Of a DNA stretch of 64,000 nt, positions 8,087 through 56,484 are shown piece after piece. A program made the position numbers and the translations under genes. Location: assembly GCA_905181965.1 (NCBI GenBank), contig CAJIZY010000003.1, positions 62,001 through 126,000 on the forward strand, written 5' to 3'. The DNA is from Akkermansiaceae bacterium. GTDB taxonomy: Bacteria > Verrucomicrobiota > Verrucomicrobiia > Verrucomicrobiales > Akkermansiaceae. The notes beneath the pieces are model-generated. The model saw nothing but the letters and a program-made list of their open reading frames with translations, did not search any database and was not told the DNA's origin. The number at the start of each line of letters is the position of its first letter. Positions within the stretch are counted from its first letter, which is position 1.

Positions 8087-8164
8087 AAGACCCCCATTTT
8101 CGGATCAAAAAAAATCGATAGCAAGAGACATTAAAAAAAAATCGTCCAAAACTCTCCCCCGCTT

Positions 8165-9265: not shown

Positions 9266-9267
9266 TC

Positions 9268-10086: not shown

Positions 10087-10096
10087 GGCTCAAAAT

Positions 10097-31439: not shown

Positions 31440-31617
31440 CCAAGAGCACCCGCTTTTGGACGATTCCAATCAGTCTGATCGAGGCGGGCTTCAAGCCGGT
31501 GTTCGCCGGAGGGTAGGGCCCCTCAACTGACCGGGGTGAGCGACGGCTACTTCATCGGCGAGATCAGCTTTGATGTTGTGTGCTAAAGAAGCGAGTGATA
31601 TTCACAAGCACAAGCTT

Positions 31618-33130: not shown

Positions 33131-33220
33131 AACAACCCCCTTTCTCCCCCATGTATTCCGCCAAACCCGGGTTTCCACGACCTTTCCTACAAAAGCAAAT
33201 TCCTAGCAGTTCAGTAGGAT
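33131..33220 (+). repeat. TTCCTAGCAG leader repeat, copy 1
   Basis: A pyrimidine-rich 5' block (CCCCCTTTCTCCCCC) is followed by a middle part and the signature AAATTCCTAGCAGTTCAGTAGG. Positions 33131-33210 match 39014-39093 at 77 of 80 positions in the same orientation. A second, isolated ATTCCTAGCA lies at 33281-33290. The ATG of the isochorismatase gene is 36 nt after the repeat. TCCTA and TAGGA at the 3' end could pair as a small hairpin. Confidence 0.85.
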
Positions 33221-33256
33221 CCCAATCCAATCGCCCCCTTCATCTCTCGCTCGCGC

Positions 33257-34135
33257 ATGAAACCGACGCCCGAAATCAAAATTCCTAGCAATAATAATCC
33301 AACGTCTGAGAATTTGGGCAAATCCACGTGGAAGCCCTTTCGATTTCGACGAATTCCGAGGGCTGTGTGCATTGCCACCTTTCTACTTGCTCTGGCATTT
33401 ACCCCCAATGCGCCAGGGAATAGTAAAGTGTTAGATCTGAAGCTGCGCGGCCTCTCGAAACCCGGCAAAGCAGAAGGGGCATGGCAGAGACACCTTGTTG
33501 AAGAACACTGGGAAGCAAAGCGGACAGCACTCGTCATCTGCGATATGTGGGACTACCACCACTCCCACAACGCGACCAAGCGCGTCGGTGAGATGGCGCC
33601 CAGGATGAACAAAGTGGTGAGCGAGATGCGCAGGCGGGGTGCCCTAGTCGTGCACGCGCCGAGCGATTGTATGGATTTTTACAAGGATCATCCCGCGAGG
33701 AAGAGAGCAATGTCCGCGCCAGTAGCAGCCAATTTCCCCAAGGACATTACTGGCTCGTGCGAGCAGATACCAGGGGAGGAAATGGATTACTACCCGATCG
33801 ATCAATCGGACGGAGGCGACGATGACGATCCGTTGATCCACCAGAAATGGGCCAATCATTTGAAGTCGATCGACCGCAATCCGAGAAGCCCATGGAAGCG
33901 CCAGATCGATGCGATTGATATCGATGGAGGAAAAGACATTATCAGCGACAAGGGGGACGAGATCTGGAACGCGATGGAGGCGCGCGGGATCGAGAATGTG
34001 ATACTCGTCGGGGTGCATACCAATATGTGTGTGCTAGGGAGACCATTTGGTCTCCGGCAGATGGCAAAGAACGGTCGCAACGTGGCGCTGATGCGGGACA
34101 TGACCGACACCATGTACAATCCGAAGATGAAACCG
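33257..34135 (+). CDS. Secreted isochorismatase-like hydrolase domain (N-terminal part of a frameshifted fusion)
   Basis: ATG 33257 is the only upstream ATG. It is followed by a repeat-like tract, so a TTG at 33315, nearer to the signal peptide (PRAVCIATFLLALAFT), is a possible real start. The domain reads ALVICDMWDYHH (catalytic Asp), then GVHTNMCVLGRPFGLRQMAKNG with the nucleophile Cys and ALMRDMTDTMYNP, all standard for secreted cysteine hydrolases of the isochorismatase superfamily in PVC bacteria. At about 34136 one base is missing. Restoring it continues as VSHYRGTDLIVEHIEKY and directly into the ThuA domain of the next entry with no stop. The joined protein would be about 1808 residues. 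The actual substrate is unknown; isochorismate is not implied. Confidence 0.8.
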
Positions 34136-34137
34136 TT

Positions 34138-37100
34138 GTATCCCACTACCGGGGAACGGATCTAATCGTTGAGCACATCGAAAAATACGTTGCCGGTACG
34201 ATCACCAGCGATCAAGTCATCGGGGGTGAGCCATTCAAGTTTAAATGGGATGTGCCGACAAAGGTGGTAATCGCAATCGCGGAACCCGAATACAAGACTT
34301 GGGAGACACTGCCTGCCCTGGCGGAGAAGATCTGGACAGAGGACAGGGGGTTCGAAGTGCAGGTAGTCATCGGAGATCCTAATAAACACACCTTGCCCGG
34401 GCTCGCTGATGCCCTGAAGGATGCGGATGTGTTGGTGTTGAGCGCGCGCCGTCAGGCACTACCGAAGGATCAGTTGGATGCGGTACGCGCGTTTCTTGCA
34501 TCCGGCAAAGGCTTGCTGGCAATCCGCACTTCCAGCCACGCATTTTTCGCACGCGGCAAAGGCCCTGAGGGGCACGCTGAGTGGCCAGAATTTGATGCCG
34601 AGGTGCTCGGCGGGAACTATGTGGGACATTACGGCGGCAAAGAGATTCCGCAGATCACGGTCGCCAAGGGCGCCGAGAAAAGACTAATTCTCGATGGGGT
34701 CAACCTTCCACATATCTCTAATGGCTCGCTGTACAAGGCTAAGCCAATAGCGAGAGATGCCGCTCCTCTACTCATCGGCACCATTGTAGGAAAGGATCCT
34801 GAGCCGGTCGCCTGGACCCGTGTCTATGGCTCCAGCAAGATTTTCTACACCTCTCTGGGGCATGTCAGCGATTTCGAACAGCCGGGATTCCTGAAGCTGA
34901 TCTGGAACGCAATGGAATGGGTGCGCACCCTGCCGAGCGACGCCCATTTGAAAAACGCAGGGAACGCTGTGGTCGAACCGTCGAAGAAGACATCTTCGGC
35001 ACCGGGCGCAAAGCCTCCGGAAGAGTCATTGCTTACACTGAAACCAGGGGCGGGCTTGGCGATCGATCTGGCGGTGGCCGATCACGAGGGCTGGACCGCC
35101 TTGCCGGTCCCCAACGCCACCGGATGGGAAACAGGAGCTGATGGGGAATTCGCAAATCACGATGGGTTCGCCTGGTACCGCGCCTATGTCAAAATCCCCA
35201 AAGAATGGCAGGGGAGCCGGCTACTCCTCATTGCCGGATCGATCGACAATGTCGACGAGGGATTCTTCAACGGTCAGCGGCTCGGTGCGAATGGATCGAT
35301 GCCACCTCTCTACAACAATCCGGCCAGCCCGATCCGGCGTCCGTTTGTGATCGAACCGGATCTCGTCCGATTTGGCGAAGTCAATCTCATCGCCTGGCGC
35401 ATCTACGACAAGGACGGCAAGGGAGGGATCATCGAAGGCCCCATCCACCTGACGCGCGCCGAAGACGCGATCGATCTAAGCGGCCAGTGGCTATTTCATG
35501 CAGGCGATGCCCCCGCATGGGCGTCCTGGTGGCACGACCCAGGCAGCGCGGACGGGAAACTCGAAGCCGAGGCGTTTTTTAATCTCGCCGGGGCGAAACA
35601 CGCTGGCCACCGGGGTCTGGTCGCTGCCGACATCGCCTATCGCGAGCGCATGATCGCCGCCGTCTACAAGCGATTCGAGGGCAACAATAATCCGTTCGCG
35701 AAGAACGATGACAAGGGCGATCCCAAAAGTCCGGAGGATTCGCTGGCGACCCTCAAGATCGCTGACGGGCTCGCGGTGGACAACGTTTTGGCAGAGCCGG
35801 TGATCACGCAGCCGCTGTATGTCGATTTCGATGAGCGCGGGCGCATGTGGGTGGCTGAGTACATTCAGTATCCCAATCCGGCAGGTTTGAAAGTACTCAC
35901 CTGGGATGCCCACTTGCGCAAGGTCTTCGACCAGGTACCGCCTCCCCCGCCCTATCAAAAGCCCGAACAACGGAAGTTCCTTGGAGCCGACATCATTAGC
36001 GTGCACGAAGATCTCGATGGCGATGGCACCTATGAAACGAGCAGGAATGTTCTCGAGGGCCTGAACATGGCGAACTCGATCGTCCGTGGTTGGGGCGGAC
36101 TCTGGGTGATGCACACTCCCTACCTCCTCTTTTATCGCGATCAAGATGGCGACGACATTCCCGAAGGAGATCCCGAAATCCGACTTGCCGGTTTTGGGCT
36201 CGAGGATACCCATAGCGTGGCCAATGGCCTTACCTGGGGGCCCGATGGCTGGCTCTACGGAGGTCAGGGCAGCACCGTCACAGCGCGCATCCGGGCGCAT
36301 CTCTCCGCGTCCGACAAACGGACCACATTCATGGGCCAGGCAATCTGGCGCTACCATCCTGAATCACACTTGTTCGAGCTGTTCGCCGAAGGTGGCTGGA
36401 ACACCTTCGGTGTCGATTTTGACGACCAGGGACGTGTCTACTCCGGAACCAACAGCAACCTGCAAGCGGTCTACTTCGTACAGGACGGGTTCTACCAAAA
36501 GGGATTCGGCAAACATGGCCCGCATACGAATCCGTATGCTTTCGGATACTTTGGCGGCCTGCCGATCAAAGGCGAAAATGTCAGGCTGGTGCACCAGTGG
36601 ATCCATTACAAGAGTGGCGCGATCCCAAGCCTCGAGGGATTGCTCGTCGGCGGGAACTCGCTCGCGAGCAAAGTCCACGCGCTGCGGATGGAACCCGATG
36701 GCAGCTCGTTCAAGACCGTCGAAGCGGCAAACCCGATCAAAACCGATCATAAATGGTTCCGCCCTGTACACTGTACGGCTGGACCGGATGGTGCGATCTA
36801 CTTTTCGGACTTTTACGATGCGCGTATCACGCATGTCGATCCGCGCGACAACTGGGACCGCGAACGCGGCCGCATCATCCGACTGCGCGCCGCCGATGCA
36901 AAACCTGGTAAGGCACCGGACCTGAGCAAGAAAACGAGCCTCGAACTTGTGAAACTATTGGCCGATCACAACCAGTGGGTACGGCGCACTGCACAACGCC
37001 TGCTGGCGGACCGCCGGGACAAATCGGTGCAGCCAGATTTGATCACCGGTCTCGTCTCGCCCGCGGGGCAACTGGCCCTGGAATCGCTCTGGGCACTCAA

Positions 37101-38682
37101 TGGAATCGGAGAATTCACCGACGCCGTCGCCCAGAAGGGAATGAAACATGCCGACCCCCATGTGCGCGCCTGGGCAGTCCGCCTGCTTGGCGATCCCCGA
37201 GCCACACTTCCCTTCGAAACCTACGAGGTGATGTCTGCACTCACTGAGAATGAGAACCACCCAGTGGTCATTTCCCAATTGGCTTCCACCGCACAGCGCC
37301 TGCCAGTGCCCCAGGCATTGCCGATCATCGGCGTGCTCACCAGCCGCGATGCCTTTGCGAGCGATTCGTTCATTCCCCAACAGATCTGGTGGGCGCTTGA
37401 ATCGGCGATCGGACGAGATGCAAAAAGTGCGCTAACTTTGCTCGATCAGGCCGAATTTTGGAACCATGCGATCTTTACTCAAGTGCTCGCCGAGCGCATC
37501 GGGCGACGCTTCATGGCCGATCGCAACGATGCCAACATGACAATCTGCGCCCAACTACTGGAACGCGCGCCTAACGCAGACACCGTCAAACACCTCCTCC
37601 GTGGGATGGAACTGGCACTGCAGGGAATGGCGATCGACTCCGTCCCAGCGGAATTTGACGCCGTGTTCAGCCGGCTCTGGAAAAAGTATCCATCAGACCA
37701 GCAACTGATCAGCTTTGCCCTGCGACTCAACAGCCAGGAAGCGCTCAAGGTTGCGCGCGCGACCATCATCGATACGTCTCGGCCGGAAGCGGAACGCGTG
37801 GGCTACATCGAGAAACTATCGCAGATGGGCGATGCCGACGCGGAACTGGCGCTACTGAAACTTGTCGGGCTGCCTGCGAAGGACGTATCGGCCCGGCTGC
37901 GCATGGCCGCTCTAAACGCGCTCCGGCGCTACAGTGGTAACGGGATCCCGGCCGCTCTGCTGGGAGCCTACGACTCGATGGAACCCGATCTCCGCCAGAC
38001 CGCACAGTCGATTCTATCTGGCCGCCCGAGCTGGGCGACGCAGTTGCTCGAGGCGGTCGACGCAGAAAAAGTCGCGCGGGAAAGCGTCACATTTGATGCC
38101 CTTTTGCTCATTCAGAGCCGCGGTGACGAAAAGGTCAAAGCCATCATCAAAAAACACTGGGGGTCGTTACGCAAGCCTGCCAAGGAAAAAGCCGCGCGCA
38201 TCGATGCGATCAAGAAACTACTGGCCGGCGATGGGGCACGCGGCGACGTCGCACGCGGGCGCACACTTTATACAGCGAGCTGTGCCGCCTGTCACAAGCT
38301 TGGAGACCTCGGGCGAGACATCGCGCCTGAACTCACAGGATACGAGCGCGGGAATCTTGACTTTCTTCTCCCGGCTATCGTCGACCCGAATCTCGGAGTT
38401 CGCGAAGAATATGAGCTCGTAACACTAACATTACGTCAAGACGATGGGGCGGAGGCCGCTGAGACAACTGCCTTGACCGGATTCGTCAGCGACGCGACCG
38501 ACCAGACGGTCACACTGAAGGACCTCGTCGGAAACAAGACCTTGATCGCGAAACGGGACATCGCCGACCAGAGCCGGGCCGCCATTTCGGTAATGCCCGA
38601 AGGTTTGCTCGATGCTCTGACCGACCAGCAGATCCGCGACTTGTTCGCGTTTCTTCAATTGAAGGATGCCACGAAGAAGTAG
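34138..38682 (+). CDS. ThuA domain, GH2-like sandwich, PVC-type dehydrogenase propeller, HEAT repeats and cytochrome c (C-terminal part of the fusion)
   Basis: Reads on from the isochorismatase domain. A ThuA-like domain (34250-34930; VLVLSARRQALPKDQLDAVR, LGGNYVGHYGG) comes first. A jelly-roll sandwich (about 35060-35500; FAWYRAYVKIPKEW, DEGFFNGQRLG) follows, like the sugar-binding domain of GH2 enzymes. The PVC-type membrane-bound-dehydrogenase propeller (about 35740-36900) has VDFDERGRMWVAEY, DLDGDGTYE and HSVANGLTWGPDGWLYGG. HEAT-like helical repeats (36930-38200) are next, then a C-terminal heme domain with CAACHKLG and LPAIVDPNLGVREEYE. PVC heme-binding CxxCH proteins normally have the last three parts; the N-terminal isochorismatase plus ThuA fusion is unusual. 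It is probably periplasmic and oxidises a polyol or sugar derivative (inference). GC content looks higher than in flanking genes. Confidence 0.82.
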   Translation, partial: VSHYRGTDLIVEHIEKYVAGTITSDQVIGGEPFKFKWDVPTKVVIAIAEPEYKTWETLPALAEKIWTEDRGFEVQVVIGDPNKHTLPGLADALKDADVLVLSARRQALPKDQLDAVRAFLASGKGLLAIRTSSHAFFARGKGPEGHAEWPEFDAEVLGGNYVGHYGGKEIPQITVAKGAEKRLILDGVNLPHISNGSLYKAKPIARDAAPLLIGTIVGKDPEPVAWTRVYGSSKIFYTSLGHVSDFEQPGFLKLIWNAMEWVRTLPSDAHLKNAGNAVVEPSKKTSSAPGAKPPEESLLTLKPGAGLAIDLAVADHEGWTALPVPNATGWETGADGEFANHDGFAWYRAYVKIPKEWQGSRLLLIAGSIDNVDEGFFNGQRLGANGSMPPLYNNPASPIRRPFVIEPDLVRFGEVNLIAWRIYDKDGKGGIIEGPIHLTRAEDAIDLSGQWLFHAGDAPAWASWWHDPGSADGKLEAEAFFNLAGAKHAGHRGLVAADIAYRERMIAAVYKRFEGNNNPFAKNDDKGDPKSPEDSLATLKIADGLAVDNVLAEPVITQPLYVDFDERGRMWVAEYIQYPNPAGLKVLTWDAHLRKVFDQVPPPPPYQKPEQRKFLGADIISVHEDLDGDGTYETSRNVLEGLNMANSIVRGWGGLWVMHTPYLLFYRDQDGDDIPEGDPEIRLAGFGLEDTHSVANGLTWGPDGWLYGGQGSTVTARIRAHLSASDKRTTFMGQAIWRYHPESHLFELFAEGGWNTFGVDFDDQGRVYSGTNSNLQAVYFVQDGFYQKGFGKHGPHTNPYAFGYFGGLPIKGENVRLVHQWIHYKSGAIPSLEGLLVGGNSLASKVHALRMEPDGSSFKTVEAANPIKTDHKWFRPVHCTAGPDGAIYFSDFYDARITHVDPRDNWDRERGRIIRLRAADAKPGKAPDLSKKTSLELVKLLADHNQWVRRTAQRLLADRRDKSVQPDLITGLVSPAGQLALESLWALNGIGEFTDAVAQKGMKHADPHVRAWAVRLLGDPRATLPFETYEVMSALTENENHPVVISQLASTAQRLPVPQALPIIGVLTSRDAFASDSFIPQQIWWALESAIGRDAKSALTLLDQAEFWNHAIFTQVLAERIGRRFMADRNDANMTICAQLLERAPNADTVKHLLRGMELALQGMAIDSVPAEFDAVFSRLWKKYPSDQQLISFALRLNSQEALKVARATIIDTSRPEAERVGYIEKLSQMGDADAELALLKLVGLPAKDVSARLRMAALNALRRYSGNGIPAALLGAYDSMEPDLRQTAQSILSGRPSWATQLLEAVDAEKVARESVTFDALLLIQSRGDEKVKAIIKKHWGSLRKPAKEKAARIDAIKKLLAGDGARGDVARGRTLYTASCAACHKLGDLGRDIAPELTGYERGNLDFLLPAIVDPNLGVREEYELVTLTLRQDDGAEAAETTALTGFVSDATDQTVTLKDLVGNKTLIAKRDIADQSRAAISVMPEGLLDALTDQQIRDLFAFLQLKDATKK

Positions 38683-38821
38683 GCTATCGGGCAGTCGTGG
38701 GTAGCACTCTGAGAGCAGTAGATCCGACGGTTGGGGGGAGACGAACAAAAAATTATCACTCACGCGAATGCGCGATAGCATGGGGGATGCCCTTGGAGCA
38801 GATTAGGACTAGGATCCCTCT

Positions 38822-39016
38822 ATGGCCAAGTTCCGTCTTTCCATGTTTCACCTGTCCAAATCCCTTAACGCCATGTTTCGTTTATCTACCTCGATCTCCA
38901 CCTATGTCCTGCTCGCCCTATTGGCCGGAGGCTCTAGCTGGGCTGTGGAGGTCGAGGAGGAGGAAGGGCCCTGGTGGTCGCTACTGCCTCTGGTGAAGCC
39001 GGCAGTTCCCGACGAC
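38822..39016 (+). pseudogene. 5' fragment of a PSD1/DUF1549-like gene cut off at a leader repeat
   Basis: From ATG 38822 or, better, ATG 38873 the frame gives a signal peptide (STYVLLALLAGGSSWAVEV) and then EEGPWWSLLPLVKPAVPDD. The last part is the typical bridge just before the NPIDxFI start of DUF1549. Homology stops exactly where leader repeat copy 2 begins (39014), and the rest of the frame is repeat sequence. No other part of the gene is found downstream. I read it as a remnant left by recombination at the repeat; the short length makes the family call moderate. Confidence 0.5.
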
Positions 39017-39140
39017 AACCCCCTTTCTCCCCCATGTATTCCGCCAAACCCGGGCTTCCGCGACCTTTCCTACAAAAGCAAATTCCTAGCAGTGTTTTGC
39101 CAAGAGAAATTTCCTAGCAGTAACAGTAATTTTCTAGCAG
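39014..39140 (+). repeat. TTCCTAGCAG leader repeat, copy 2 with triplicated tail
   Basis: 39014-39093 is 77/80 identical to copy 1. The tail signature then recurs twice more in degenerate form: AAATTTCCTAGCAGT (39107-39121) and AATTTTCTAGCAGC (39128-39141). The start codon of the C25-like gene follows after 10 nt. No copy of the gene upstream of copy 1 is present here, so only the repeat is shared. Confidence 0.85.
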
Positions 39141-39150
39141 CTTTACGATC

Positions 39151-40525
39151 ATGGAATTGAAACACGCTCTGAGGCTTGTCGGCATCGCTATTTTTTTAAC
39201 ATCGCCCGCTAAGCTGCAAGCCGACGACAGCTATGCCATAGTGGTAAGCAAGGACACCCATGCACACGCCGATTGGGCGCCAGTCGTCGAGGCGCTGCGC
39301 AGCAAGCACAGCGGTATTGTAATCGAGTACGAGAAAAATCTTTCGGAAAGCCTCCCAGCGTTACAAGCAGCGTTCCCGAAATATACCTGTATCGTCGCCA
39401 AGCCGGAAGATGCGGGACGTGCCTTCGTAGCCGCCGCCCATCAACTCACCCGTCAACTCGACGCGGATCCCTACCCCGACACCATCTGGGCCATTGTCAC
39501 AGGGTATGAATCGGCTGATGCCTTGCGCATAGCCAAGCATGCCAAACCGCTAACGGTAAAACGCGCTCTTTCCGGGACGGTCGGTTCACCTTTGGACGCC
39601 TATGAGGAAGGCGTCATGTTCAACGAACTAAAAGCCAATGCGATGTGGGAAAAAGTCTTAGGTCAAACCGTTACCCGCAAGTCCTGCCCCCAAGATACCA
39701 CCAAGCTTATTGTCGATTCGCTAAACGACTACAAACCGGACGTCTTCATCACCAGCGGTCACGCTACGGAGCGTGATTGGCAACTGGGCTTCACCTATCG
39801 CAACGGCTACTTCAAATGCAAAAATGGGCAGCTCTTTGGTCAGGATTCGTCGGGCGGACGCCATGACATCAACTCGCCCAATCCAAAGGTTCACCTGCCC
39901 GTCGGCAACTGTCTAATCGCGCACGTTTCCAATCGCGAATGCATGGCGCTGGCGCTGATGCATTCTGCCGGCGTAAATCAAATGGTGGGCTACACCATCC
40001 CCACGGGCTACGGCTACGGCGGTTGGGGCGTAAAGGACTACTTTTCGGAATTGCAGGCGGGGCGCTTTAGCCTATCGGAAGCGCATCACGCCAACCAAAT
40101 CGCCCTCAACTACAACATTGAGATGTTGGCAAAATCCGGTAAGCGCATCCACGGTCTTAGCGGCGATCGCGACGTGGTCGTGCTCTACGGCGACCCCGCT
40201 TGGGAAGCGCGTATGCCAAAACGCCAATTGCCTTGGACCCAGACCCTCAGCAAAAAAGGCGGTATCTATACCTTTACCGTTATCGCCAACCAACGCGGCG
40301 ACTGGGACAATCGGCCCGTTGTCCACCTTCTACCGAAACGCCTCACCAACGTGAAACTTCTTACCGGAGGAGAACTCAACCCCGTCATCGGCGATAATTT
40401 CATTCTCATCAAGTTTTTTAAGTATAGCTCCCATGAAGGGGAATCGCGGCGAGGCAATTCCGATCCGCGGCGACTATGAAAAAGGCCAGACCTTCACCAT
40501 CACCTTCTCGGGAGAAGTCATCTAG
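39151..40525 (+). CDS. Secreted C25/caspase-like cysteine peptidase-fold protein (frameshift near 3' end)
   Basis: Signal peptide at residues 1-24 (up to LQADD). The core resembles the gingipain/caspase fold: a first alpha/beta unit (SYAIVVSKDT, CIVAKPEDAGRAF), then VFITSGHATERDW with the candidate catalytic His (H204) and VHLPVGNCLIAHVSNREC with the candidate Cys (C254). QMVGYTIPTGYGYGGWGVKDYF follows. These features point to C25-like clan CD proteins; activity is not proven. The frame as read ends at 40479 after unrelated residues. Deleting one T from the six T at 40414-40419 gives KFLSIAPMKGNRGEAIPIRG...TFSGEVI and a stop at 40523-40525 (about 457 residues). It starts 10 nt after leader repeat copy 2. 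Confidence 0.65.
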
Positions 40526-40590
40526 TGGAACATCCTCAAACGCCACCACACCACCAAGCGCAACTTCAAGATCGAGACCATGGAGCCCAT

Positions 40591-40630
40591 AACCTCCTTT
40601 TCTCCCCTCCTCCGTTCCAGTTCTCGGAGG
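40591..40630 (+). repeat. Partial leader repeat upstream of the MscS gene, with hairpin
   Basis: AACCTCCTTTTCTCCCCTCC followed by TCCGTTCCAG matches the 5' half of the repeat copy at 42275 (CTTTCTCCACCCTCCGTTCC); the TTCCTAGCAG tail is missing. CCTCCG (40609-40614) and CGGAGG (40625-40630) can form a 6-bp stem with a 10-nt loop. It lies 50 nt upstream of the MscS start. Confidence 0.55.
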
Positions 40631-40680
40631 GAATACCATTGGAATAAAGCGAGATTTGTTGTAGGCAACATAGCACCTTA

Positions 40681-42063
40681 ATGTTCACAGATTTTTTCAA
40701 TTCTCTGGTAGACTTGTTCGATGATCAATCAGATTGGATCCAATGGGCCGTAGTAGCTGGCTGTCTTGGATTCACCTTCGTGATCAAGAAGGCAATAAAG
40801 CACTATTTTAACAAGACGGATACCAAGTTTAAAAGGCACTGTAAATCCGCATTCGATAACTACGACGGACTTCGCACCTATCCCTGTATTCTTGTGTTTT
40901 TCTTGGTGGTAGCATTGAATACTGTCCCTCTCTTTGATCTGGAATCGCGTTACATCAAGGTCATTTCTTATTTGGTGTCAGCCTACTGCGTCTACAATCT
41001 AGTAAACGTATTCTCAAGGGGACATTTTGTTCCCAAAGTACTTGGCTTACTGATCTATATTACATTGGCCCTCTCCTTAATAGGTTGGCTCGAACCACTC
41101 AAGCAAGCGATGTCGAACGCTGCGATTCCGGTCGGTGATATTCGTCTTGATCTCTGGCGGATTCTCTCGGGGATTGTGATTCTATTAGTGCTTCTTTGGC
41201 TCGCCGGAGTGATTAGTAATCTTATAGAGGTAGGGGCTCGGCGCAATAGGTCGCTACCTCCCACGATGCGAGTCCTTGTCATGAAGGCGTCTCGCCTCTT
41301 TCTCTATGTGGTGGCAATTTTAATTTCTTTGAAGACATCTGGCGTCGACCTCAGTGCTCTCGCCTTTTTTTCAGGAGCCCTTGGTTTGGGATTAGGTTTT
41401 GGTTTGCAGAAGGTCATTTCTAATTTGGTTTCAGGTGTGATCATTCTGCTGGATAAATCGATCAAGCCTGGCGACGTCATCGAGATCGACGGCACCTATG
41501 GTTGGATCAATACGCTCCGAACTAGATATGTATCTGTCCTCACACGCGATCGTAAAGAGATCTTGATTCCCAATGAAGACTTTGTCACCAACAAGGTAAT
41601 AAACTGGTCTTTCTCGGATACTTTTGTGCGGATTAAGGCAAATGTGGGGATCTCTTATGACGCGGATGTTGATCAAGCGATCGAGTGCTGCATCACGGCT
41701 GCGGAAAGTATCCCGCGCGTTGTAGGCAATCCTTCTCCCAAGTGCCTGCTGGTGGGCTTTGGAGATTCATCGATCGATTTGCAGATTCGCTTCTGGATCA
41801 ATGATGCTAACGAGGGCGTAGCCAATGTGCGTTCCGCTGTGCTGTTGCAGGTGTGGAGGGAGTTTAAGGCAAACAATATCGAAATCCCATTCCCGCAGCG
41901 TGAGATTCGCATGAAGGATATTTCTGGTGGCGGACAAGTTGGCTTTTCAGGAACGGTGGGGAATTTCGATCCTAACGACCCAGACGATGCGGCGGAAGCT
42001 AGGGAAATCGAGGAAATAATAAAGGCTTCAGAGAACAACTCCGAGGCCGATAAGAAAAAATAA
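40681..42063 (+). CDS. MscS family mechanosensitive ion channel
   Basis: A 460-residue inner-membrane protein with about five membrane segments in the first 240 residues. The pore helix region is LSALAFFSGALGLGLGFGLQ (Gly/Ala-rich TM3), followed by KVISNLVSGVIILLDKSIKPGD and the beta domain (IEIDGTYGWINTLRTRYVSVLTRDRKEILIPNE). These are the hallmark of the MscS channel that releases solutes on hypo-osmotic shock. The C-terminus (residues about 415-460) is acidic and probably disordered. It is a single gene with leader repeat remnants on both sides. Confident on the family, not on which solutes pass. Confidence 0.9.
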   Translation: MFTDFFNSLVDLFDDQSDWIQWAVVAGCLGFTFVIKKAIKHYFNKTDTKFKRHCKSAFDNYDGLRTYPCILVFFLVVALNTVPLFDLESRYIKVISYLVSAYCVYNLVNVFSRGHFVPKVLGLLIYITLALSLIGWLEPLKQAMSNAAIPVGDIRLDLWRILSGIVILLVLLWLAGVISNLIEVGARRNRSLPPTMRVLVMKASRLFLYVVAILISLKTSGVDLSALAFFSGALGLGLGFGLQKVISNLVSGVIILLDKSIKPGDVIEIDGTYGWINTLRTRYVSVLTRDRKEILIPNEDFVTNKVINWSFSDTFVRIKANVGISYDADVDQAIECCITAAESIPRVVGNPSPKCLLVGFGDSSIDLQIRFWINDANEGVANVRSAVLLQVWREFKANNIEIPFPQREIRMKDISGGGQVGFSGTVGNFDPNDPDDAAEAREIEEIIKASENNSEADKKK

Positions 42064-42440
42064 TAGTGGAGACTAGCTAAGTTCTTCTGTTGCGAGCTCG
42101 AATTACTCGTCTAGACCATATTGCCCATTTCAATGATCATGTCTTGGTTCCATACAGGATCTCAAACAAAGTTCTCAGGGCATCGTCAATACCTTCGACG
42201 CCCAAGATGCGTGATTGTGTATCAGCAGCGATCACTGGCCCCATGCCGGGGCCTTAGCAAAAACGTATCATCTACTTTCTCCACCCTCCGTTCCGGTCCA
42301 AAGGCGACATCAAGGCCCTCCCGCCATAGGAAAACTCCTAACAGTTCAGTGAAAAAACAGCGAAGACCAAGTTTGCGGTGCTGCGTCAGGCTCATTGGAA
42401 ACTCGCCTAGGCGGTCATCTTTGGCCAGTGAGGCGCTGTT
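42064..42440 (+). other. Spacer between convergent genes, containing leader repeat copy 3
   Basis: No coding sequence is supported. 42275-42351 is a diverged copy of the leader repeat: CTTTCTCC, CTCCGTTCCGGTCCAAA, GGCCCTCCCGCC, then AAACTCCTAACAGTTCAG. It is the only recognisable copy with no plus-strand gene just downstream; the next gene is on the opposite strand. This suggests either loss of the former downstream gene or that the element is not strictly a leader. Confidence 0.65.
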
Positions 42441-44572: not shown

Positions 44573-44759
44573 AATAAGAGGTTTTTAATCCGTGGCAGGT
44601 TACTTACCCAAAGCAATGATGAACTTCTCTCCATTTCGCCGGACACAGGAATGAAGAGCGCAATACGGAGATTTCATGGACACGGGCGTCTTCGCCAAGG
44701 ATGAGTCACCCCCCCTTTTTTCCTCCGCCCCCTTCAACGACGCCCTAAGGCGCTCTGGC

Positions 44760-46229: not shown

Positions 46230-46259
46230 CTTTGCCCCGTTGTATACGGTCTTAATAAG

Positions 46260-46799: not shown

Positions 46800-46938
46800 G
46801 ATTAGAAGATCACCCCAATCTCAACTCCGTCAAGAGATCAAATTGCCCTCATAACCGATGACTCCTTAGGCAGGAATAAAGTTTAATTAAGGAAATCCCG
46901 GTAGCGAATCAGAAGCACCGGAATTTAGATAACTTCCT

Positions 46939-47008
46939 CTTTCTCCCCACCAGCTCCAGTACAAATACGGCTCCATGGCCCTGCCACCAAAAGAAAAATC
47001 CTAGCAGC
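46939..47008 (+). repeat. TTCCTAGCAG leader repeat, copy 4
   Basis: CTTTCTCCCCACCAGCTCC, then ACAAATACGGCTCCATGGCC, CTGCCACCAAAAG and AAAAATCCTAGCAGC. The order and spacing of blocks match copies 1, 2 and 5 over about 70 nt. It lies 54 nt before copy 5, so two copies stand in tandem in front of the same gene. Confidence 0.75.
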
Positions 47009-47062
47009 TATCGTTGAAACGTTCCACGTCCAACCACCGTATAATTCAACTAATCCCAACCG

Positions 47063-47140
47063 GTCTTCTCCGGTCCTCTCCGGTCCAAATACAATTCCAT
47101 GGCCCTCCCGCCAAAAAATTCCTATCAGTCAGTAGGAATA
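47063..47140 (+). repeat. TTCCTAGCAG leader repeat, copy 5
   Basis: GTCTTCTCC, CTCTCCGGTCCAAATACA, TTCCATGGCCCTCCCGCC, then AATTCCTATCAGTCAGTAGG. TTCCTA and TAGGAA pair as a perfect 6-bp stem with an 8-nt loop (47119-47138). The ATG inside it (47099) is in frame with the next gene, but the signal peptide begins at ATG 47159, so the repeat is taken as untranslated. Confidence 0.8.
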
Positions 47141-47158
47141 GACCCAACTCACTCCACT

Positions 47159-49804
47159 ATGAAACCCTCTAGCTCACCCCTTGTTTTTGCTGTCGCCGTC
47201 ATGCTTATTACTGCCAACGAAAAGGCTGCAGGGCAATGGGTCGCCTATAACGATTCCGCCGATATTGATCCTGATTTGACAGCTGAAAATATCACATCGT
47301 TTGGACTTGGGCGAGGGTATCAGGGTGATGGTGGAGCAGGTGAGTTATTGGACTTTGAGACGGGAAATCCAACCGGTGTGGAAGTTAAATTTGTGGAAAT
47401 ATTTTCCACGGGTAATACCGTCAACTGGGCAGGAGATCTCTCCAGAGTCGACGAAGATTCTGATGCCGCGCTCACTTTCAGCGAGAATGTCAATCTTACC
47501 GGAAATATGAGCTACAACGATGCACCGGGTTGGTATGTCGATCTAATCATTACCGGACTCGATCCTGAACGCACCTACACGTTTGAAGGAACCGCTAATC
47601 GTGGCGGGGGGGCGTCTTATGCGGACCGGGTGACCAACTGGAGCATCTTGGAAGCCGATGACTTAGTTTATGCGAGCACACTGGCTGCCCATAAGGTCAG
47701 TGATGCTTCGGTCGAGTTTAGCACGGGGGAAAACACTGCGGGATACGTGGCACGCTGGACGGGAATTCAACCAGGGCAAGACGGAAAGATTTTGATCCGA
47801 ACAACCCATGGCATTGGGGAAGCAGCTGGCGGAATGCCGGGTGCTCATGCTTACAAGGGCTACGCTGGCGGAGCGTTTATTGTTCGCGAGGAACCTGCAG
47901 CAAGCGGGTTTGTCTGGCGCGCATTTAACGATAGCGTTATCACCGACCCTGGACTCGTGTCAGAGAACGCTACGAACTTCGGACTTGGGCGAGGGTTCGA
48001 TGGAACTGGTGAGACCGGTGAATTACTCAAGATCAATTCGGGAGATGCTACAGGCGTAACCGTTGAATTTGTCGAAAATTTCTCTACGGGTAACACGATC
48101 AACACTGCGCGTGATTTTTCTGAATTTAATCCTGAAACTGATGCCGCCATGATTTTTGGAGACCATGTCGAAGCATCTGGAAACTTAAGTTACAACGACG
48201 CGCCGGGATGGTACCTGGATCTCATTATCACTGATCTTGATCCGGAGAAAACTTACTCTTTTTCGGGAACTGTAAACCGGGCGGGAGGAGCATCCTATGC
48301 CGACCGTGTCACCAACTGGACCATTCGTGATGCAAAGGCATCCGTCTATGCCTGTTCAACCGGGGCTCACAAAGTCAGTGACACCTCGGTTGAATTCAGC
48401 ACAGGGGAGAATGGAGCTGGGTATGTGGCGCGCTGGACGGATATTCAGCCAAGCGAGGACGGCAAGGTTACGATTCGCACTAGCCATGGTGTCGGTGAAG
48501 CCAATGGGGGGCTGCCCGGCGCCCACGCCTACAAAGGCTATGGCGGTGGTGTTTTCATGTTAGGCGAGCAGTCAGGCGCATCTGTTATTCCAATTGATTC
48601 AGTCGGTGTTTTCCGACTAACTCCAGCCCCAAATTTGGAAAACGTGCATCCCAATGCGCCTGTCGAAATTGTCCTAGAGCATCGTTCCGCGGTGGTCGAT
48701 CCAGCAACGATCTTACTTTCCTTAAATGAAATCAACGTAGTGCCGGAAGTGATTGTCAGTGAAGACGAAACGATCATTCGTTTTATCCCCTCAACAATGC
48801 CGGCCGCTAACTCAACAACGAACGTAGCCCTCAAGTTCAGCGATAACTCTGAACCAGCGACCGACTATGTCCGTGAGTGGTCATTCAAGGTGACGAATTA
48901 TATCGACCAGAATTTATACGGCACGATCCCGTCATCCTGGGCAATGCCCATCGACGGTGCTCGACAACGGGGTATCGCCATGCGTGTTGCTGCTCCCAGC
49001 TTGGATGACGATGTGTTCCTCGAAACCCCCGAGGACGTAGAAGCAATATGGAATGAAACCTTCGTGAACCTCGCAGATCTCAAGGATGCGAATAGTCTCG
49101 GTTATTTCATTGAAACTGGCACCATCAACTACCAAACCGATCTCGAGCCGCGTGGCAACAAGGCTGGTGAAACCAACTTCCCAGGGATTCAAAGCAGCTT
49201 TGAACCGGGGGTTCCATTTGGCCTTGAGATCGATACATTACTCCTCCTCGATCCAGGGTTCCACTTGTTCAATTTTACTGTGCCAGGAGACTTTGAGTGC
49301 TTCATCGGTTTTGGCAGTAACAAGATAAAACTACCGCGAACCTATGCTGAGTGCACGAACTGCGGAGGGGAGGACGGCCCGTGGTTCACCGGTATTGTGA
49401 TAGAAGAGCGCGGCCTTTACCCTTTCAGAGTCATCTACCCAAACCCGGGAGGCTCTGGCAGCCTTGAGTGGTTAGAAGTTGCCCCTGATGGTCGACGCCA
49501 CTTAATCAATGCGCCGAATGAAGATTCGATCCCGGCATTCCTCCCATCGAGCATCTTTCCGGTCGGCTTGCGTGTCCTCAGTATCGAGCGCAATGGCCCC
49601 CTACTAAACTTGATGGTAGAGACCCCAGATCCATCGCTAGCTCACATCGTCGAAATGAGTACGAGTCTTGAGCCCAATTCATGGGGGCCAGCACTGATTG
49701 AGGACACTGAACAAATCACTGGCAACCTCCTGCGAATTGAGCTCGAAATACCAACCAATCCAACTGCTTTTTTTCGTGTCCGGATCGGCGCAGACGGTAA
49801 CTAG
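47159..49804 (+). CDS. Large secreted protein with two tandem beta modules and an Ig-like domain
   Basis: ATG 47159 opens a signal peptide (SSPLVFAVAVMLITANEKAAG). Two modules of about 225 residues follow, each starting W(V/R)A(Y/F)NDS and containing SYNDAPGWYxDLIIT, SYADRVTNW and GAHAYKGYxGG. Next are an SbsA-type Ig-like domain (about 450-580) and a domain with FECFIGFGSNKIKL and ECTNCGGEDGPWF. The tail is SMxTSLEPNSW...AFFRVRIG. It looks like an extracellular binding or structural protein; no catalytic motif is seen. It is preceded by two leader repeats and is convergent with the propeller gene at 49964. Confidence 0.7.
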   Translation: MKPSSSPLVFAVAVMLITANEKAAGQWVAYNDSADIDPDLTAENITSFGLGRGYQGDGGAGELLDFETGNPTGVEVKFVEIFSTGNTVNWAGDLSRVDEDSDAALTFSENVNLTGNMSYNDAPGWYVDLIITGLDPERTYTFEGTANRGGGASYADRVTNWSILEADDLVYASTLAAHKVSDASVEFSTGENTAGYVARWTGIQPGQDGKILIRTTHGIGEAAGGMPGAHAYKGYAGGAFIVREEPAASGFVWRAFNDSVITDPGLVSENATNFGLGRGFDGTGETGELLKINSGDATGVTVEFVENFSTGNTINTARDFSEFNPETDAAMIFGDHVEASGNLSYNDAPGWYLDLIITDLDPEKTYSFSGTVNRAGGASYADRVTNWTIRDAKASVYACSTGAHKVSDTSVEFSTGENGAGYVARWTDIQPSEDGKVTIRTSHGVGEANGGLPGAHAYKGYGGGVFMLGEQSGASVIPIDSVGVFRLTPAPNLENVHPNAPVEIVLEHRSAVVDPATILLSLNEINVVPEVIVSEDETIIRFIPSTMPAANSTTNVALKFSDNSEPATDYVREWSFKVTNYIDQNLYGTIPSSWAMPIDGARQRGIAMRVAAPSLDDDVFLETPEDVEAIWNETFVNLADLKDANSLGYFIETGTINYQTDLEPRGNKAGETNFPGIQSSFEPGVPFGLEIDTLLLLDPGFHLFNFTVPGDFECFIGFGSNKIKLPRTYAECTNCGGEDGPWFTGIVIEERGLYPFRVIYPNPGGSGSLEWLEVAPDGRRHLINAPNEDSIPAFLPSSIFPVGLRVLSIERNGPLLNLMVETPDPSLAHIVEMSTSLEPNSWGPALIEDTEQITGNLLRIELEIPTNPTAFFRVRIGADGN
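47237..48565 (+). repeat. Two tandem copies of a 678-bp coding module
   Basis: Unit 1 is 47237-47914 and unit 2 is 47915 to about 48565, a period of 226 codons. Long blocks are shared at both protein and DNA level (for example the stretch around GCGGACCGGGTGACCAACTGG against GCCGACCGTGTCACCAACTGG). The duplication is old enough for many synonymous and some replacement changes. It lies wholly inside the secreted protein gene. Confidence 0.85.
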
Positions 49805-49963
49805 GAGAGCGTTTACAGCGTCAGCACTGAGGTAGATACTTTCCTCATGTTAATTTTCTTTTTCAGCAGATTGCGATGGTTTCCTTTCTGTTGATTTTCG
49901 ATTGATCTATTGCGTCGCGCTCGGACCGGGTCGCAATCCGAGCGATCTCGACTCCGCTTAACC

Positions 49964-52175
49964 CTATCGAGAAACTTTCAAACGCAGGAAATTCTCCCCC
50001 CCGTTTGCCAATGGAATCGACACCCTCCGTATTTCAACTTCGGCGCGAGCCTCGAGCAATTCATCAGGCGTATCAATCCAGGTTTTCAGATCGGAACTCG
50101 CTTGGACCTGGTAGATGATATCGGTTCGATCGAGAATCTTCCGGTAAGTCAAAACCATCGACTCCCCTTCATGCCCGATTGTAACTCCGTCATCCTCTAT
50201 AATTGTTGATCTTGGATTATTACCGAACGCGTATTCGATCAAAGTCCCCATTTCCATCCCCATCCCCATCCGCAAGATCACCCCATAGTGAGGATTCTAG
50301 ATTAGGATCGGCAAGTTCTTCGATGCTGAAATGTTGATGCCGCCAGATTTCCATCGGCTCCGCATTGAAAAGAATCTTAGCAGGCCGCGGCCCCTCTTCC
50401 AATATGCCATCGCTCACCGTGACAGCGAATCTTGGGGGAGATTCCGGAGCCAGCCTCTGATAACGGAACATCGAAATATCCGTGACCCCAGAGACTCTCT
50501 CTCCGATTGTAAAATAAGCGTCAGCACTTGCCGAAAAGCAAACCGCCTCTCCTTTTGGTTCGCCTCCCGGAACGCGTGCTCCAAAAAAGGGTAACTCTTC
50601 AATAGCACTACCGGTGAGAAGGTCGGCAATAGAGACGCTCAGATCCGGACGCCGAAAATACAAAACGTGCTCGTAGTTTCGAACGATAATTTCGAGCCCA
50701 TCTCGAGAAATATCGGCAGCAGTTGTACTCACTGAAAAACCGTAAAGGCGATCGTGAATGATGGCTGGCGTCTCACCGAGATATTCCAAGGTTTGCACGC
50801 CAATATAGTTTTCCTGATGAGCGAGCCGGAACAGCCGGCCGACTGTTTCGCGCTTAGACAGAATATACACGTCCCCGTTATGTGGATCGACGATCAAAGA
50901 TTCTGCGTCGCGGCGAGCTGGAACACCGGGCACTCCAGGTCCACCTTCACCTCCCGGTGTTACGGGATATTGAAACTCAATTCTCTCGATGTCCGTTTCC
51001 GGAATAATTCCACCCCCATTGGCGACCAGAAGCGGCTCTCTAATTCGAAGAATGTTCAGGTCTGTTCTTACGGCACCGTTATCCCCAAAATCACCAATGT
51101 AGAGCAGGGGCTCGTCGTTCACCGTGGCGGCACCAATATCTTCCCAGTCATTATTAGTCGCACCAGCAAGAATCCACTCGCCTCGATTGCTTCCGTTGGT
51201 TCCCAGCGCGATCAAATTGGTCGGCTTGCCGCTATCTTGATGCGCCCACAAAATCCCCGGGTTTTGAATCGACGCGACCAATCCTGAGATTTCAGTAAGA
51301 CGCGTAGGCTCAAGAAGATTCCCCGCAACATGTCCTGCCCCAAACCGGCCCGGCTCGTAAACGAATTGAATCTCGCCATCGGTGATCTGAACCTGAGAAA
51401 AATCGGCGATCGCAACACCAGGAGCTGAAACTAACTCGAACCGCCCCGACTCAAGATCACTGATCCTAAAATCGAGCTGGCCATCATCGCTCGTAAAATC
51501 AGATGCCCTCAGTTGTTCTGGAGTGATCGCGATGATCGACTCCCCAGTCGAAGCAGCAAGCCAACTGCGCCGAATCACAGGGGCAGTCGGCCCGACGACA
51601 TCCGTCGCACGCAAATCGAAGCTCAAATCGGAGCTCCCCGGCTTGTCCTGATGCACCTCAACGGCGATGATGTTTTCTCCCGGTTTAAGCAAGAGAGGAG
51701 ATACGATGAACTCGTGAATGACAGTCTCGACCACCCCTCCCTGTGAAAGACTGGCCACCGTGTCTTTCGTGATTAACTCATCTTCCGGCATATTTGACCG
51801 CCCGACTTCCACTCCATTCACGAAGAGGACGGCCCCATCATCACGCAACAGCTCGAGTTTGATTCCCGGCAAAGCCGACGGGTCATCCACCATGAACTTA
51901 CGCCGAAAATACGTTGTGATAAACTTACTTCTCGGATTGTCACCAAACCCAACCTGAGTCGTTTCATCCTCACCATAGCCTAGCTCAGCCAATCCGCTTT
52001 TCCACGAACTGTCGTCAAAAAAATCCTGCCTCCACTCGTAACCCTGTTCGCTCCCGTCATCGAGATACTTCCACGTTGAACCAAACGGAATGAGAACTGA
52101 CTGACCACAAGCGAGACCCGTGAGTGCAATCGAAAGTGATACTAAAATAAATGAAGTGAACCCCAACAATCTCAT
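49964..52175 (-). CDS. Secreted galactose-binding-like plus propeller protein (frameshift near 3' end)
   Basis: The frame reaches 52232; ATG 52175 starts the signal peptide (MRLLGFTSFILVSLSIAL) and is preferred. Residues about 25-190 form a sandwich domain (FDDSSWKSGLAELGYGEDE, LRDDGAVLFVNGVEV, GENIIAVEVHQ) also found in the CotH protein upstream. Residues about 290-600 contain propeller-like sequence: NDWEDIGAATVNDEPLLYIGDFGDNG, DAESLIVDPHNGDVYILSKR. At DGDGDGNG the frame ends at 50220. Removing one G from GGGG (about 50249-50252) restores TLIEYAFGNNPRS and the usual tail to 49964 (NFLRLKVSR). The corrected length is about 736 residues. Function unknown. Confidence 0.68.
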
Positions 52176-52380
52176 AAGAACGAATGAACGAAGACACTTC
52201 TTCGCAGGTGAAAGCCTCTTCAGCGAATCCAAAACAACAATTTTCAGATTTTAACTTCGGACGAGATCCTCTCAGACCCCCCAAGAAAAAACCAAAGCTT
52301 CAACGGGGTGGTCCGACTCAGCTCCTTTTCTCTCCAATCAAAACCTGGGTTCCTTCCATTTCCGATTAGAAAGGAAATCA

Positions 52381-55300
52381 CTACTCCGTCAAAACGCGTA
52401 GTCGCATAAAGGATACTTTTTCCTCCTGATTATCGAAGGGTAAGACGCTTCGATATAGAACTACTGAAAGGCCATTTTCTGCTACCTCTTCAGAAACAAA
52501 TATCAGCTCACCGTCAGCCGGCTCCCAATTCTCAAGATTCCTCGACTGCTCAATGACGTAATTATCGAGCACCCCAGTGGTTATTTTCTGAACATGCAAA
52601 GTAGAGAAAGTTACCCTCTTGTTCTTCAACAATAAAATTCATAACTCCTACCTCAGGAATAGCGAACGAACTCGGATCGGCTGGATCCGTTCCCATCGCA
52701 ATTTCGACATCGTCGGGAACACTGTCTCCATCGCTATCATTCCCAACAGCAGGAGGGGCGCCTCCGATCCCAACTCCGGGAGTACCTCCAACTACTAAAC
52801 TAGCGGTCCAACTCGTAGCTTCGTTGTGATCAGAATTACTAAAAGGGCGAACAAGTTCGAGGCTGAAGCCTTGTCCATCCGCTTCCTCTGGCCATGGAGA
52901 GGCATCTTGATAGCGAAAATCTTTTATAACACTTTGAGAAAAATCGCTCAAAAGAAGATGCTCGCCATTATTATCAAGCCGCCCGCTATATGAGCCAGCC
53001 ACAGGAAGTCCGCCACCATAACGGAGTTCAAAGGCCTCCTTATTACTAACTAATAGAATCACTTCTTCTGGTCCGAGAGTCACTCTATCTGCTCCGCGAA
53101 AATCAAACCCAATTCCTGCAAGAAAAGATGACTCGAAAAGATTGACCTGTTTGCCTGCAATATTTTGGAGCTCAAGCCATTCAAAATCATCTTGATTAGT
53201 GAATCCTGCGGCTTTCTCTAATTCACTTGGTGCGGCCGGATGATACATGATCTCCGAAACCACAAGGTTAGCCTCTGAGCCGCGATCTTCGCCAACCACA
53301 AAATAAGCACTCTTGGGAGGGCTCCAGTAGATACGGCCATTCGCTTCTTCCGCCGTTCGAGAAGTGACGAGGGTCGACTTGTTTATCGGAAGGGGATTGG
53401 GAGCGAGCGTCTCATTAATATTAAGCTCTGGAAGAATGAAAAAGTCAGAGCCCCCCGGGGAAGTATTCATCCCTTGAATCGCGAGCACATTACGACCTTC
53501 ACGAACGATTTCCGATCCATTAGCAACACTGAAATCCTCGAAAATAATCGCCTCACTATCCTTATGAGATCTCGTTGCCCGAGAATTCCATGCCAGCGTT
53601 TCTGGAGCATTAGCACGAGCAATTTCGACCCCATTGAGATAAGCTGCGAATCCATCATCATACTTCATTTTAAGCGTCACCGCATTGACGTTTGAGGCCT
53701 TGTTATTGAAGTTGAATTCGACCCTAGCATAAACACTCGAGTTCACGTACCGCATCTCGCTCTGTATATTTGTGTTGATTAAATCGAGGGCTGGCCCGTT
53801 GGTTTCAAATCCCATCGCGGTTGCACCAGAAGCCCAAGAAGAATCATCAAAATCAAATGTGCTCCAACCATTACCAAGAGAGTCATCCAAAGGTATTAAG
53901 TGTTTACTCGGAACAAACGAGGCAACGTAATTATTGGTGAATTGACCACCAGGAAAAAGCTCGCCAGCTACAACGCCATTAAAGTCACGCGGATCCGTTC
54001 CGTCTAATGTGTAAAAGACCGACCCCTTAGGTGATGACATCGCGAGTTCAAAACCTTCCTCCACAATTCCACCTTCCCGATTCATGGTCGCCTCAGGAAG
54101 CCATTGCCGGTCCATAAATTTAACGCGCTCTCTCAACCATCCCTTGAGGTGCTCAACTTCACCTTCCCAACCTCTATCGCCATTGGAGTAACGCCCCCCA
54201 TTCGGAGGCCTAGTCGACCAGCGAAGGAAGTTTCGCGACTGAGCTTCCCTGATCTGAGAAGCCATCCCATCGATGATACTGTTAAAACTTTCTTCTGAAA
54301 AATGCGTCTTCCGGAGACTAAAATAGCGGTCGATATAGGCTTGGTTGAAATCGGGATCACCTCTATCGCTCGCAAGCGGAGGGGCTCCATTCACACCAGG
54401 TTTCCAAATCAGATTATTCCACCAAGGATAAGCCCAAAAATCATTATTAGAAAAAGAGCTCGGAACCCCTGAACGGCTATCCGAATCACAGCCCAGGCAA
54501 CGATCAAAGTCCCAGACGGGGCCATAATGAACCTTTCCTCCGCGAGGTTTAAACAAATAAGTGCTTAAGCGCAAAGCATCGGGATCTTTTGAAAGGATTC
54601 GTAACAAGTGCTCATCCAACCAACTTCCCACATCGATATACTCAGAATAATGTTTTCCAGTTGCGGTATTAACGTAGTCAGGGAAATTACGGATAGCTCC
54701 ATTGAATTCATTGAGATAGTTTCCAAGATATTCCGCTTGGGCATCGGTAACATTCTCTTCTTTTGGATAAATCCATCCTAGGGACCCCATACCCTGAACC
54801 CTGAGACCTCGATCCCCAGGATCGAGTCGATCTTTCTTAAACATGAAGCCTCCTGTGATTGCGGGCTCAGTCGTGTCGGATGGAGAGAGGCGCTCAACAT
54901 CAACGCGATTAGGATCCCTCTTAACTTTTTCAATGAGAGAGTAAACTCCCATATAGTCTTCTGCTTCAAGAACCCCATCATCCGTATTCGAGAAAACTTC
55001 CACAAATCGTGTCCGCGGCGCATAACGACCAATCCTGCGACTCAGCTCATACATGAAGGGGTTACGCATCAGCGCACGATCAAAATCCCAGCGCCCGCTT
55101 AGCACCCAATCAGACTGGGCCGGCATTCCCAGCACGCTCAAATCACGATCTTCATCCACCTCGTCGCGAAACTCCACCGCAAGAGAATACTTTGCCCAAG
55201 AACCCGTGGAAGACCCGCGTTGCCGCATGTTACCCCGGGTTTCCAAGTCAGGCTTATTTCTTACCGACGCCCGCTTCTCCTCACCTTCACCTTTCGGCTC

Positions 55301-56269
55301 ATAAACAGAAATGTGCATATCGCGATTACTACTCGGTCGCCCTCTATCAAAATTGTCGAGAACAACAATGGGGAGATCTGAAGTGAAATCCCGAATGGGC
55401 GCGCCTATGTAACGCTCAGAGTTAGTGACATTCTCCTCCTGCAGATAAATATAGGTGGCACTCAGCGTCTCTCCCAATGTTCCATCCACATCAATGATCC
55501 TAGCCCTTACTTGCAAAGTCCTATCGGAAGACTTCTGAACTGATATAGAATTTTGATAAATTGGACTATCCTCATTAGGTTCTGGAGTGGCCCCACTACT
55601 ACTGATGTTAGTTTCAAAATGAATCGCCTGACCCGGCCCGGCTCCCGATAGGACCAAGTTAAAAGCTTCCGTGAAAGTCTGGCTAGAATGAGAAAAATTA
55701 ACGAGAGGAATAGGATTCTGAAAAGACGCTCCATTCATTACCCCGGGACTCGGAGGAGAGAAATACCCCTCAGTCCCTCCAGCATCCGATTCTTTAAATC
55801 CGTATGAGATATCTGTGAACTGTTTAGGAAAGAAAGGAGCAAATTCTTGGATTACAGTGAGTCCGTCTTTACCGACCAAAGCAAGATATTCCCCATCCGT
55901 CGTAAGTTTAAAATTAGTGTGTAAATTTCCTCCTGGGTTTGATCGGCGCTTTTCGGAGGCAAATACGATCATCGCTTTACCAGCAGCTAACTGCACTGCC
56001 GGGAAAGACCACTTAACTAAATTATCGGACTTATCAGTGAGGTAGTATCCGGCAAGATTAAGAGGATTATTGCTTGGGTTATAGATTTCTATCCAATCAA
56101 CATAATCATTATCTTCGTCCTGAAGGACCGTTGAGTTAGAGGCCGAGAATTCAGAAATGATCGGATGAGAAAAGGAAACCTGACTAAGACAACAAATACT
56201 TAGAAAAGTTATTAGAAAAGATTTATAGCGATTCGAAATACGCACAAAGCGTAAGATTTTCTCCGTCAT
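52381..56269 (-). CDS. CotH-like protein with lamin-tail domains (frameshift near 3' end)
   Basis: ATG 56269 has a GAGG 4 nt upstream and is preferred over ATG 56284. Signal segment (SFLITFLSICCLSQVSFS), then a first lamin-tail domain (ISEFSASNSTVLQDEDNDYVDWIEIYN), a chitobiase-like sandwich, and a CotH kinase-like domain (about 330-680). The CotH region shows RGNMRQRGSSTGSWAKYSL, LSGRWDFDRALMRNPFMYEL and HYGPVWDFDRCLG. A galactose-binding-like domain and a second lamin-tail domain (NLVVSEIMYHPAAPSE) follow, then DSDGDSVPDDVEIAMGTDP. The frame ends at 52562 in unrelated residues. Removing one G at about 52617-52620 gives VTFSTLHVQKITTGVLD and a normal tail to 52381 (MRLRVLTE). About 1295 residues. 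CotH enzymes phosphorylate proteins in spores, but activity here is not shown. Confidence 0.75.
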
Positions 56270-56365
56270 TGGACCTCGAAGCATGTAAGGTTTCCCGCAG
56301 GAATCAATGAAGTAAGTATTTAAAACTCTAAACTATCTTCCGACTGAGAAGGGGCGGTAGAAATT

Positions 56366-56434
56366 CTTCTTCCTAATCCGCTCCAGCCCAAAAATGGCTT
56401 CACTCTTCTTCCACCAAAAGTAAATTCCTAGCAG
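56366..56434 (+). repeat. TTCCTAGCAG leader repeat, copy 6
   Basis: CTTCTTCCTAATCCGCTCCAG, then CCCAAAAATGGCTTCACTC, TTCCACCAAAAG and TAAATTCCTAGCAGCC. The block order is the same as in copies 4 and 5. It lies in the divergent spacer between the CotH gene (minus) and the oxidoreductase gene (plus), 50 nt before the latter's start. Confidence 0.7.
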
Positions 56435-56484
56435 CCAGCTCCGATTTGCCTCGCGCCCTTATCAATTTCTCTCAAAGCTACACC

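Follow-up and report, generated by a model that had tools for sequence, protein, structure and literature searches.

Along a 64,000-nt stretch of DNA from an uncultured marine relative of Akkermansia (the window; bases 62001-126000 of contig C3, CAJIZY010000003.1, in a 2.64-Mb metagenome-assembled genome (MAG) that is 61.6% complete), a 77-nt element recurs on one strand. Sequence comparison indicates an oriIS-like right end, that of an IS91-family transposon found in Akkermansiaceae and their relatives, and it is from sequence that we describe the element's identity, solo copies, borders, arrays and junctions. We judge it likely (probability about 0.84) that the copies are solo IS91-type right ends produced by one-ended copying, by a transposase supplied in trans or active in the past, with recombination between copies probably adding to the effect. 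In the open-access literature we found no paper on this repeat family, most subscription journals lying outside the search. Genomes and fetched loci are given by our own G and L numbers.

The predicted right end of an IS91-family transposon

In contig JAPKDA010000045.1 (L235), from an Akkermansiaceae MAG, a 500-residue transposase without stops is encoded, and the element lies 202 nt downstream. The protein has the domains Y2_Tnp (PF04986, 1e-23) and Zn_Tnp_IS91 (PF14319, 2.2e-19) and scores 169.2 bits against the NCBIfam IS91 transposase model NF033538 (cut-off 125). Its translation contains HPHLH and YYGLY, which we take to be the HUH motif and the two presumably catalytic tyrosines. At all six loci where the transposase match extends to the last residues, the element stands on the same strand, 202, 211, 212, 213, 215 and 223 nt downstream; these loci were fetched for carrying the element, so its presence was selected, while distance and strand were not. 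Loci with inner transposase pieces only had other gene-element distances. In an alignment of the six loci, similarity runs through the element and ends directly after TAGCAG[Y], followed by divergence. The fixed position 202-223 nt behind the transposase gene and this abrupt stop together point to a right, oriIS-like end. The non-autonomous mobile element that the earlier, sequence-only reading of the window had listed among its candidates was thus right in kind, and most copies examined have no adjoining transposase gene. We also considered the element as the coding 3' end of the transposase, as suggested by P0001, and rejected this because the L235 gene stops 202 nt ahead of the element; P0001 is a gene truncated at the start of an element.

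The arrangement resembles that of ISCR elements, which, in the available text of PMC13393415, PMC6218425, PMC12772301 and PMC13023784, have oriIS at the right end, downstream of the transposase gene, and a TTCCTA core at the same offset, and for which genes between two oriIS are proposed to have been captured. Compared by eye, the final 22 nt of our element and the ISCR1 right end shown in PMC13023784 both carry TTCCTA, at an equal offset. The excerpted part of that paper describes an oriIS region of roughly 100 bp as sufficient to mobilise neighbours, and that of PMC6218425 records no demonstration of ISCR transposition as of its writing. Unlike ISCR, the elements here are mostly solo ends among ordinary chromosomal genes, and the L235 protein reaches only 95.8 bits with the ISCR clade Ia model, against a cut-off of 925.

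Copies in the window and among related genomes

We built a sequence-only profile from 12 training sequences, including all six window copies, so independent support comes from copies outside the training set. The six score 51.7-65.8 bits (E 2.2e-19 to 5.5e-15) and all lie on the plus strand, as first read. Features of the window are as follows.

33133..33210, plus strand: full-length solo right end, bordered by CAAC on the left (65.8 bits)
39016..39093, plus strand: full-length solo right end, bordered by CAAC on the left (62.8 bits)
39094..39121, plus strand: final 28 nt of a second element (12.6 bits for 39099-39121; alignments)
40537..40570, plus strand: scrap of an IS91-family transposase gene (read by eye)
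About 40591..40666, plus strand: apparently a full element in decay, bordering the MscS gene block on its left (7.2 bits, E 0.44; alignment with G020 and G025 by eye)
42270..42345, plus strand: solo right end, diverged (62 bits)
46934..47008, plus strand: solo right end, diverged (62.5 bits; homology with G015 stops at 47009)
47058..47129, plus strand: solo right end, diverged (51.7 bits; homology with G015 resumes at 47070)
56361..56435, plus strand: solo right end, diverged (60.2 bits; homology with G020 begins at 56418)

The element whose tail forms 39094-39121 is whole in G025 and G020, where it aligns ahead of the same gene. At 40591, the supposed half copy looks like a full-length but decayed element with the transposase scrap directly before it. 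The matching stretches of L128 and L129 are 92% identical over 37 nt and 80% identical over 61 nt, respectively, to the L235 transposon, a comparison restricted to copies with a score of 50 or more and a run of C ahead of TTTC; the window's own stretch was not listed against the transposon at E<=1e-6. A possible tail at 1053 found no counterpart among the 32 model matches listed at E<=10; only the 8-mer CAGTAGGA is present there, which occurs three times in the window against 0.81 expected (4 of 100 shuffles reach three). Separately, two 119-nt direct repeats, 94% identical, lie at and past the end of an open reading frame (ORF) at 32452-32570 and 32606-32724.

That the repeats form a dispersed family was borne out when we scanned the genome and its relatives, as had been proposed. 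In the window's own genome, where the model scored 150 of 1474 first-look candidates, 29 places matched at E<=1, one of them a weak match on C14 and the others on C3, C5, C9 and C13; TTCCTAGCAG occurs there 12 times forward and once in reverse (reversed control, 1 and 2). Among 58 related genomes, the window's own included, that genome and 27 others matched at E<=0.001, and three further genomes reached the limit of 81 scored candidates. At the level of the order, where 16 candidates per genome were scored, matches at E<=1e-7 came from 45 of 288 genomes, in 17 of 50 genera. Same-genus genomes G001, G007, G008, G012, G013, G016, G019 and G024 gave no element match. Scanning named genome contigs for the pattern returned at least 104 stretches, mostly in Akkermansiaceae or other Verrucomicrobiota MAGs; the few titled as other groups are perhaps misbinned. 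The 39016 copy had no plasmid match. Plasmid relatives of the transposase amount to at least 5000 records, and the 12 matches listed are 26.9% identical. In the viral collection, no contig encodes a confirmed transposase relative and one carries the element pattern. The IMG/VR contig L250 (4219 bases) holds two elements plus transposase pieces at 1048-2291, an arrangement that looks like insertion of one element into a second copy.

Borders and a copied block

All loci compared were selected for carrying the element, and part of them were fetched with a pattern fixing CAGY. At the left border, 63 of 131 copies (filtered as above by score and C run) start exactly at CAAC, preceded by A in 19, C in 7, G in 13 and T in 24; in the transposon this CAAC is internal and follows G. 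At the right border, CARY directly follows TTCCTAG in 239 of 274 copies, a count partly imposed by the fetching pattern. Two or more consecutive CARY occur in 47 of the 274, 40 of them of one variant (43 of 234 in an earlier count).

At L166 (CAJJBR010000056.1), a 429-nt block recurs 1,436 nt further on at 99.8% identity with new flanks on both sides. Its left edge is the CAAC of one element and its right edge the 3' end of the following one; these are the borders that one-ended transposition predicts. In G015, about 3.8 kb is present on two contigs, which diverge where the element ends at its 3' side; an alternative source of this duplication could be a pair of strain haplotypes.

These borders bear on a rival account, possible but in our view doubtful, in which the elements are likewise IS91 right ends but transposition only scattered them earlier, the shuffling being due to RecA homologous recombination between repeats. 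It leaves unexplained the exact CAAC left borders, the copied L166 block with its new flanks, and the joining of the full element at 39016 to the last 28 nt of another.

Arrays and synteny breaks

In array loci, neighbouring elements are on the same strand in 108 pairs and on opposite strands in 9; the corresponding numbers for 74 loci of six close genomes are 128 and 13. Elements lie a median of 1.7 kb apart and enclose one to a few ORFs. For 135 copies in array loci, with ORFs called mechanically, the nearest upstream ORF is co-oriented with the element in 86 of 122 cases and the nearest downstream ORF in 83 of 128, and there is no special link to start codons or 5' flanks. Placement before starts had been a central part of the sequence-only reading; it holds for four of the six window copies, which lie shortly before plus-strand ORFs, and does not extend to the arrays. 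The array ORFs (82 of 92 scanned) gave 101 families, of which the 25 commonest include sulfatases, PSCyt, GFO/IDH/MocA and DUF1501 and contain neither a transposase nor a recombinase.

Breaks in synteny cluster at the copies. Across the 74 loci, with homology blocks of at least 300 bp at 80%, 84 of 291 distinct internal block ends (not all independent) fall within 15 bp of an element, compared with 7.0 expected from coverage, so that the earlier candidate of a recombination site holds in effect. At 42270 the window's match changes, from G025 on the upstream side to G015 on the downstream side; a block shared with G015 stops at 47009 and the next starts at 47070. G020 is without the MscS gene and its element, having a single element before the same following DNA, and 8.1 kb with four elements is absent from G014 in the same manner.

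Pairs of copies sharing only the upstream flank (nine) have a middle-third element identity of 0.78, and those sharing only the downstream flank (eight) 0.79, the pairs not all being independent; background is 0.63 and pairs sharing both flanks reach 0.92. Only copies with sufficiently long flanks entered the flank comparisons, the flank-sharing test also required reach to model position 70, and identities by element third were taken from copies starting by model position 10. The intermediate values imply that neither flank cleanly owns the element. An earlier idea that the element moves with its upstream gene was suggested on a smaller set and was not borne out by the larger one.

Recombination by RecA would account for junctions on either side of and within the element, for these middle-third identities above background, and for present or absent gene blocks flanked by two direct elements. 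It is also consistent with the failure to find an intact transposase in 13 genomes and with the attribution, in the accessible part of PMC3189936, of most natural IS801 fragments to rearrangement.

Several rearrangements are recorded here as observations in their own right. G000, G015 and G014 share an array left edge (window about 31440-33133; L078 from 4780; L131 from 4267), where collinear DNA stops just past a DUF1501-type gene and the arrays then differ. In G020 (L129 15519-15602; L141 3074), two opposite element 3' ends are joined, replacing 4.1 kb of window 52276-56418. Some presence/absence differences between genomes have no element at the site: G015 lacks 4.7 kb at window 6888-11550 (17-nt gap) and 3.1 kb at 52529-55638, within the ORF at 52562-56284 (12-nt overlap at the join).

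Integron, leader RNA and other readings

Integron integrases (IntI; TIGR02249 above cut-off) occur in 18 of 58 related genomes, G001, G010, G013 and G019 among them. If the element were an attC-like site for a tyrosine integrase, an integron-type cassette system would fit the one-way gene arrays with separators, the gene blocks gained or lost between separators, and the presence of IntI in element carriers G003, G022, G026 and G033. However, no IntI above cut-off was found in eight element-rich genomes (G000, G002, G004, G009, G014, G015, G017 and G025), whereas G001, G013 and G019 have IntI but no element match. Core sites of attC, sought with a sequence pattern, are present in 0 of 171 copies, and the copies show no fold. 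We ruled this reading out on these grounds and consider it very improbable. As described in the available text of PMC8618304, integron cassette arrays and CALIN share with our arrays the same-strand separators and the frequent lack of an enzyme nearby; they differ in that here the separator is a transposon end, with no attC core sites or fold and no IntI association.

A leader RNA or other cis-regulatory element before exported-protein genes, which we find even harder to credit, has in its favour the four window copies shortly ahead of plus-strand ORFs. Against it, there is no 5'-flank preference, copies also lie at gene ends and by opposite-strand genes, Rfam has no match in the window, and no consensus fold or covariation emerged, neither 12 nor 101 copies giving any predicted pairs. 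As DNA, 40 copies sampled from the 171 have a mean fold z of -0.25 on the plus strand and -0.07 on the minus strand. The TTCCTA/TAGGAA hairpin first proposed for the 3' tail is strong at 47058 (z -3.99) because of that copy's flank, and three other copies have values of 0.72, 0.18 and -0.20.

Other enzymes were considered in the same eight element-rich genomes. Target-primed reverse transcription, hinted at by 5'-truncated copies and repeated CAGT tails, was rejected as none of the eight has an RVT_1 match (9 of 27 genomes of the genus do). IS200/IS605 Y1 transposases and serine recombinases, found in 15 and 9 of the 27 genus genomes, likewise gave no match in any of the eight. Other tyrosine recombinases have two matches each in G004 and G017, probably XerC and XerD. 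As the MAGs are incomplete, these absences are of limited weight as proof.

Discussion

We infer that a transposase, in trans or in the past, would start at the right end and copy leftwards by a rolling-circle route until it halts at a target-like tetranucleotide, CARY. A halt at the internal CAAC would yield a solo 77-nt end; read-through to the CARY behind the next upstream element would carry the intervening gene along. Insertion beside CARY, which also stands behind most elements, would string genes, each with its element, into same-strand arrays, and homologous recombination between copies would probably add to the shuffling.

One-ended transposition of IS801/IS91 offers the closest description: in the available text of PMC3189936, it too combines an IS91-family transposase with a fixed right end, and derivatives keep that end, have a target-like tetranucleotide at their start and can take DNA from upstream along. 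The IS801 miniatures described there are few and measure 229-679 nt, whereas the elements here are about 77 nt, number tens per genome and form arrays with genes between; the tetranucleotides are GAAC, GGAC, CAAG and CGAC for IS801 and CARY here, where transposition is predicted from sequence. Helitrons such as Helraiser, related rolling-circle elements that pick up adjacent DNA when an end is read through, are eukaryotic and are likened by description only (PMC4778049, in part).

Several points weigh against one-ended copying from solo right ends. About half of the 131 copies lack the CAAC start, and the element does not clearly travel with either flank. The transposon is delimited at its right end only. 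A Y2 transposase search of 13 genomes found no intact gene: the G015 match, the first gene of an array, is cut off at the element start, the G006 copy has stops and 11 genomes have none. Orthologous spacers lacking the element, an earlier suggestion for a check, did not appear as empty 77-nt sites in 235 collinear pairs, a sample biased by loci chosen for elements and by many pairs being one contig present twice; plain 77-nt insertion was rejected on this result. Finally, the genomes compared are close relatives, and short-read MAG assemblies may misjoin at repeats.

We tentatively suggest, at somewhat less than even odds, that a lineage of mostly marine Akkermansiaceae has turned an IS91-type right end into a general tag, such that 77 nt behind a gene would make it a rolling-circle cassette. 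Insertion at CARY would then build integron-like one-way arrays, exchanged between species without integrase or attC. Evidence that IS91/ISCR elements carry neighbouring genes in bacteria is called circumstantial in the available part of PMC4778049; here, one copied block has both predicted borders. The many solo right ends among ordinary genes of close relatives provide natural events for testing one-ended transposition, and suggest an integrase-free route to cassette-like arrays.

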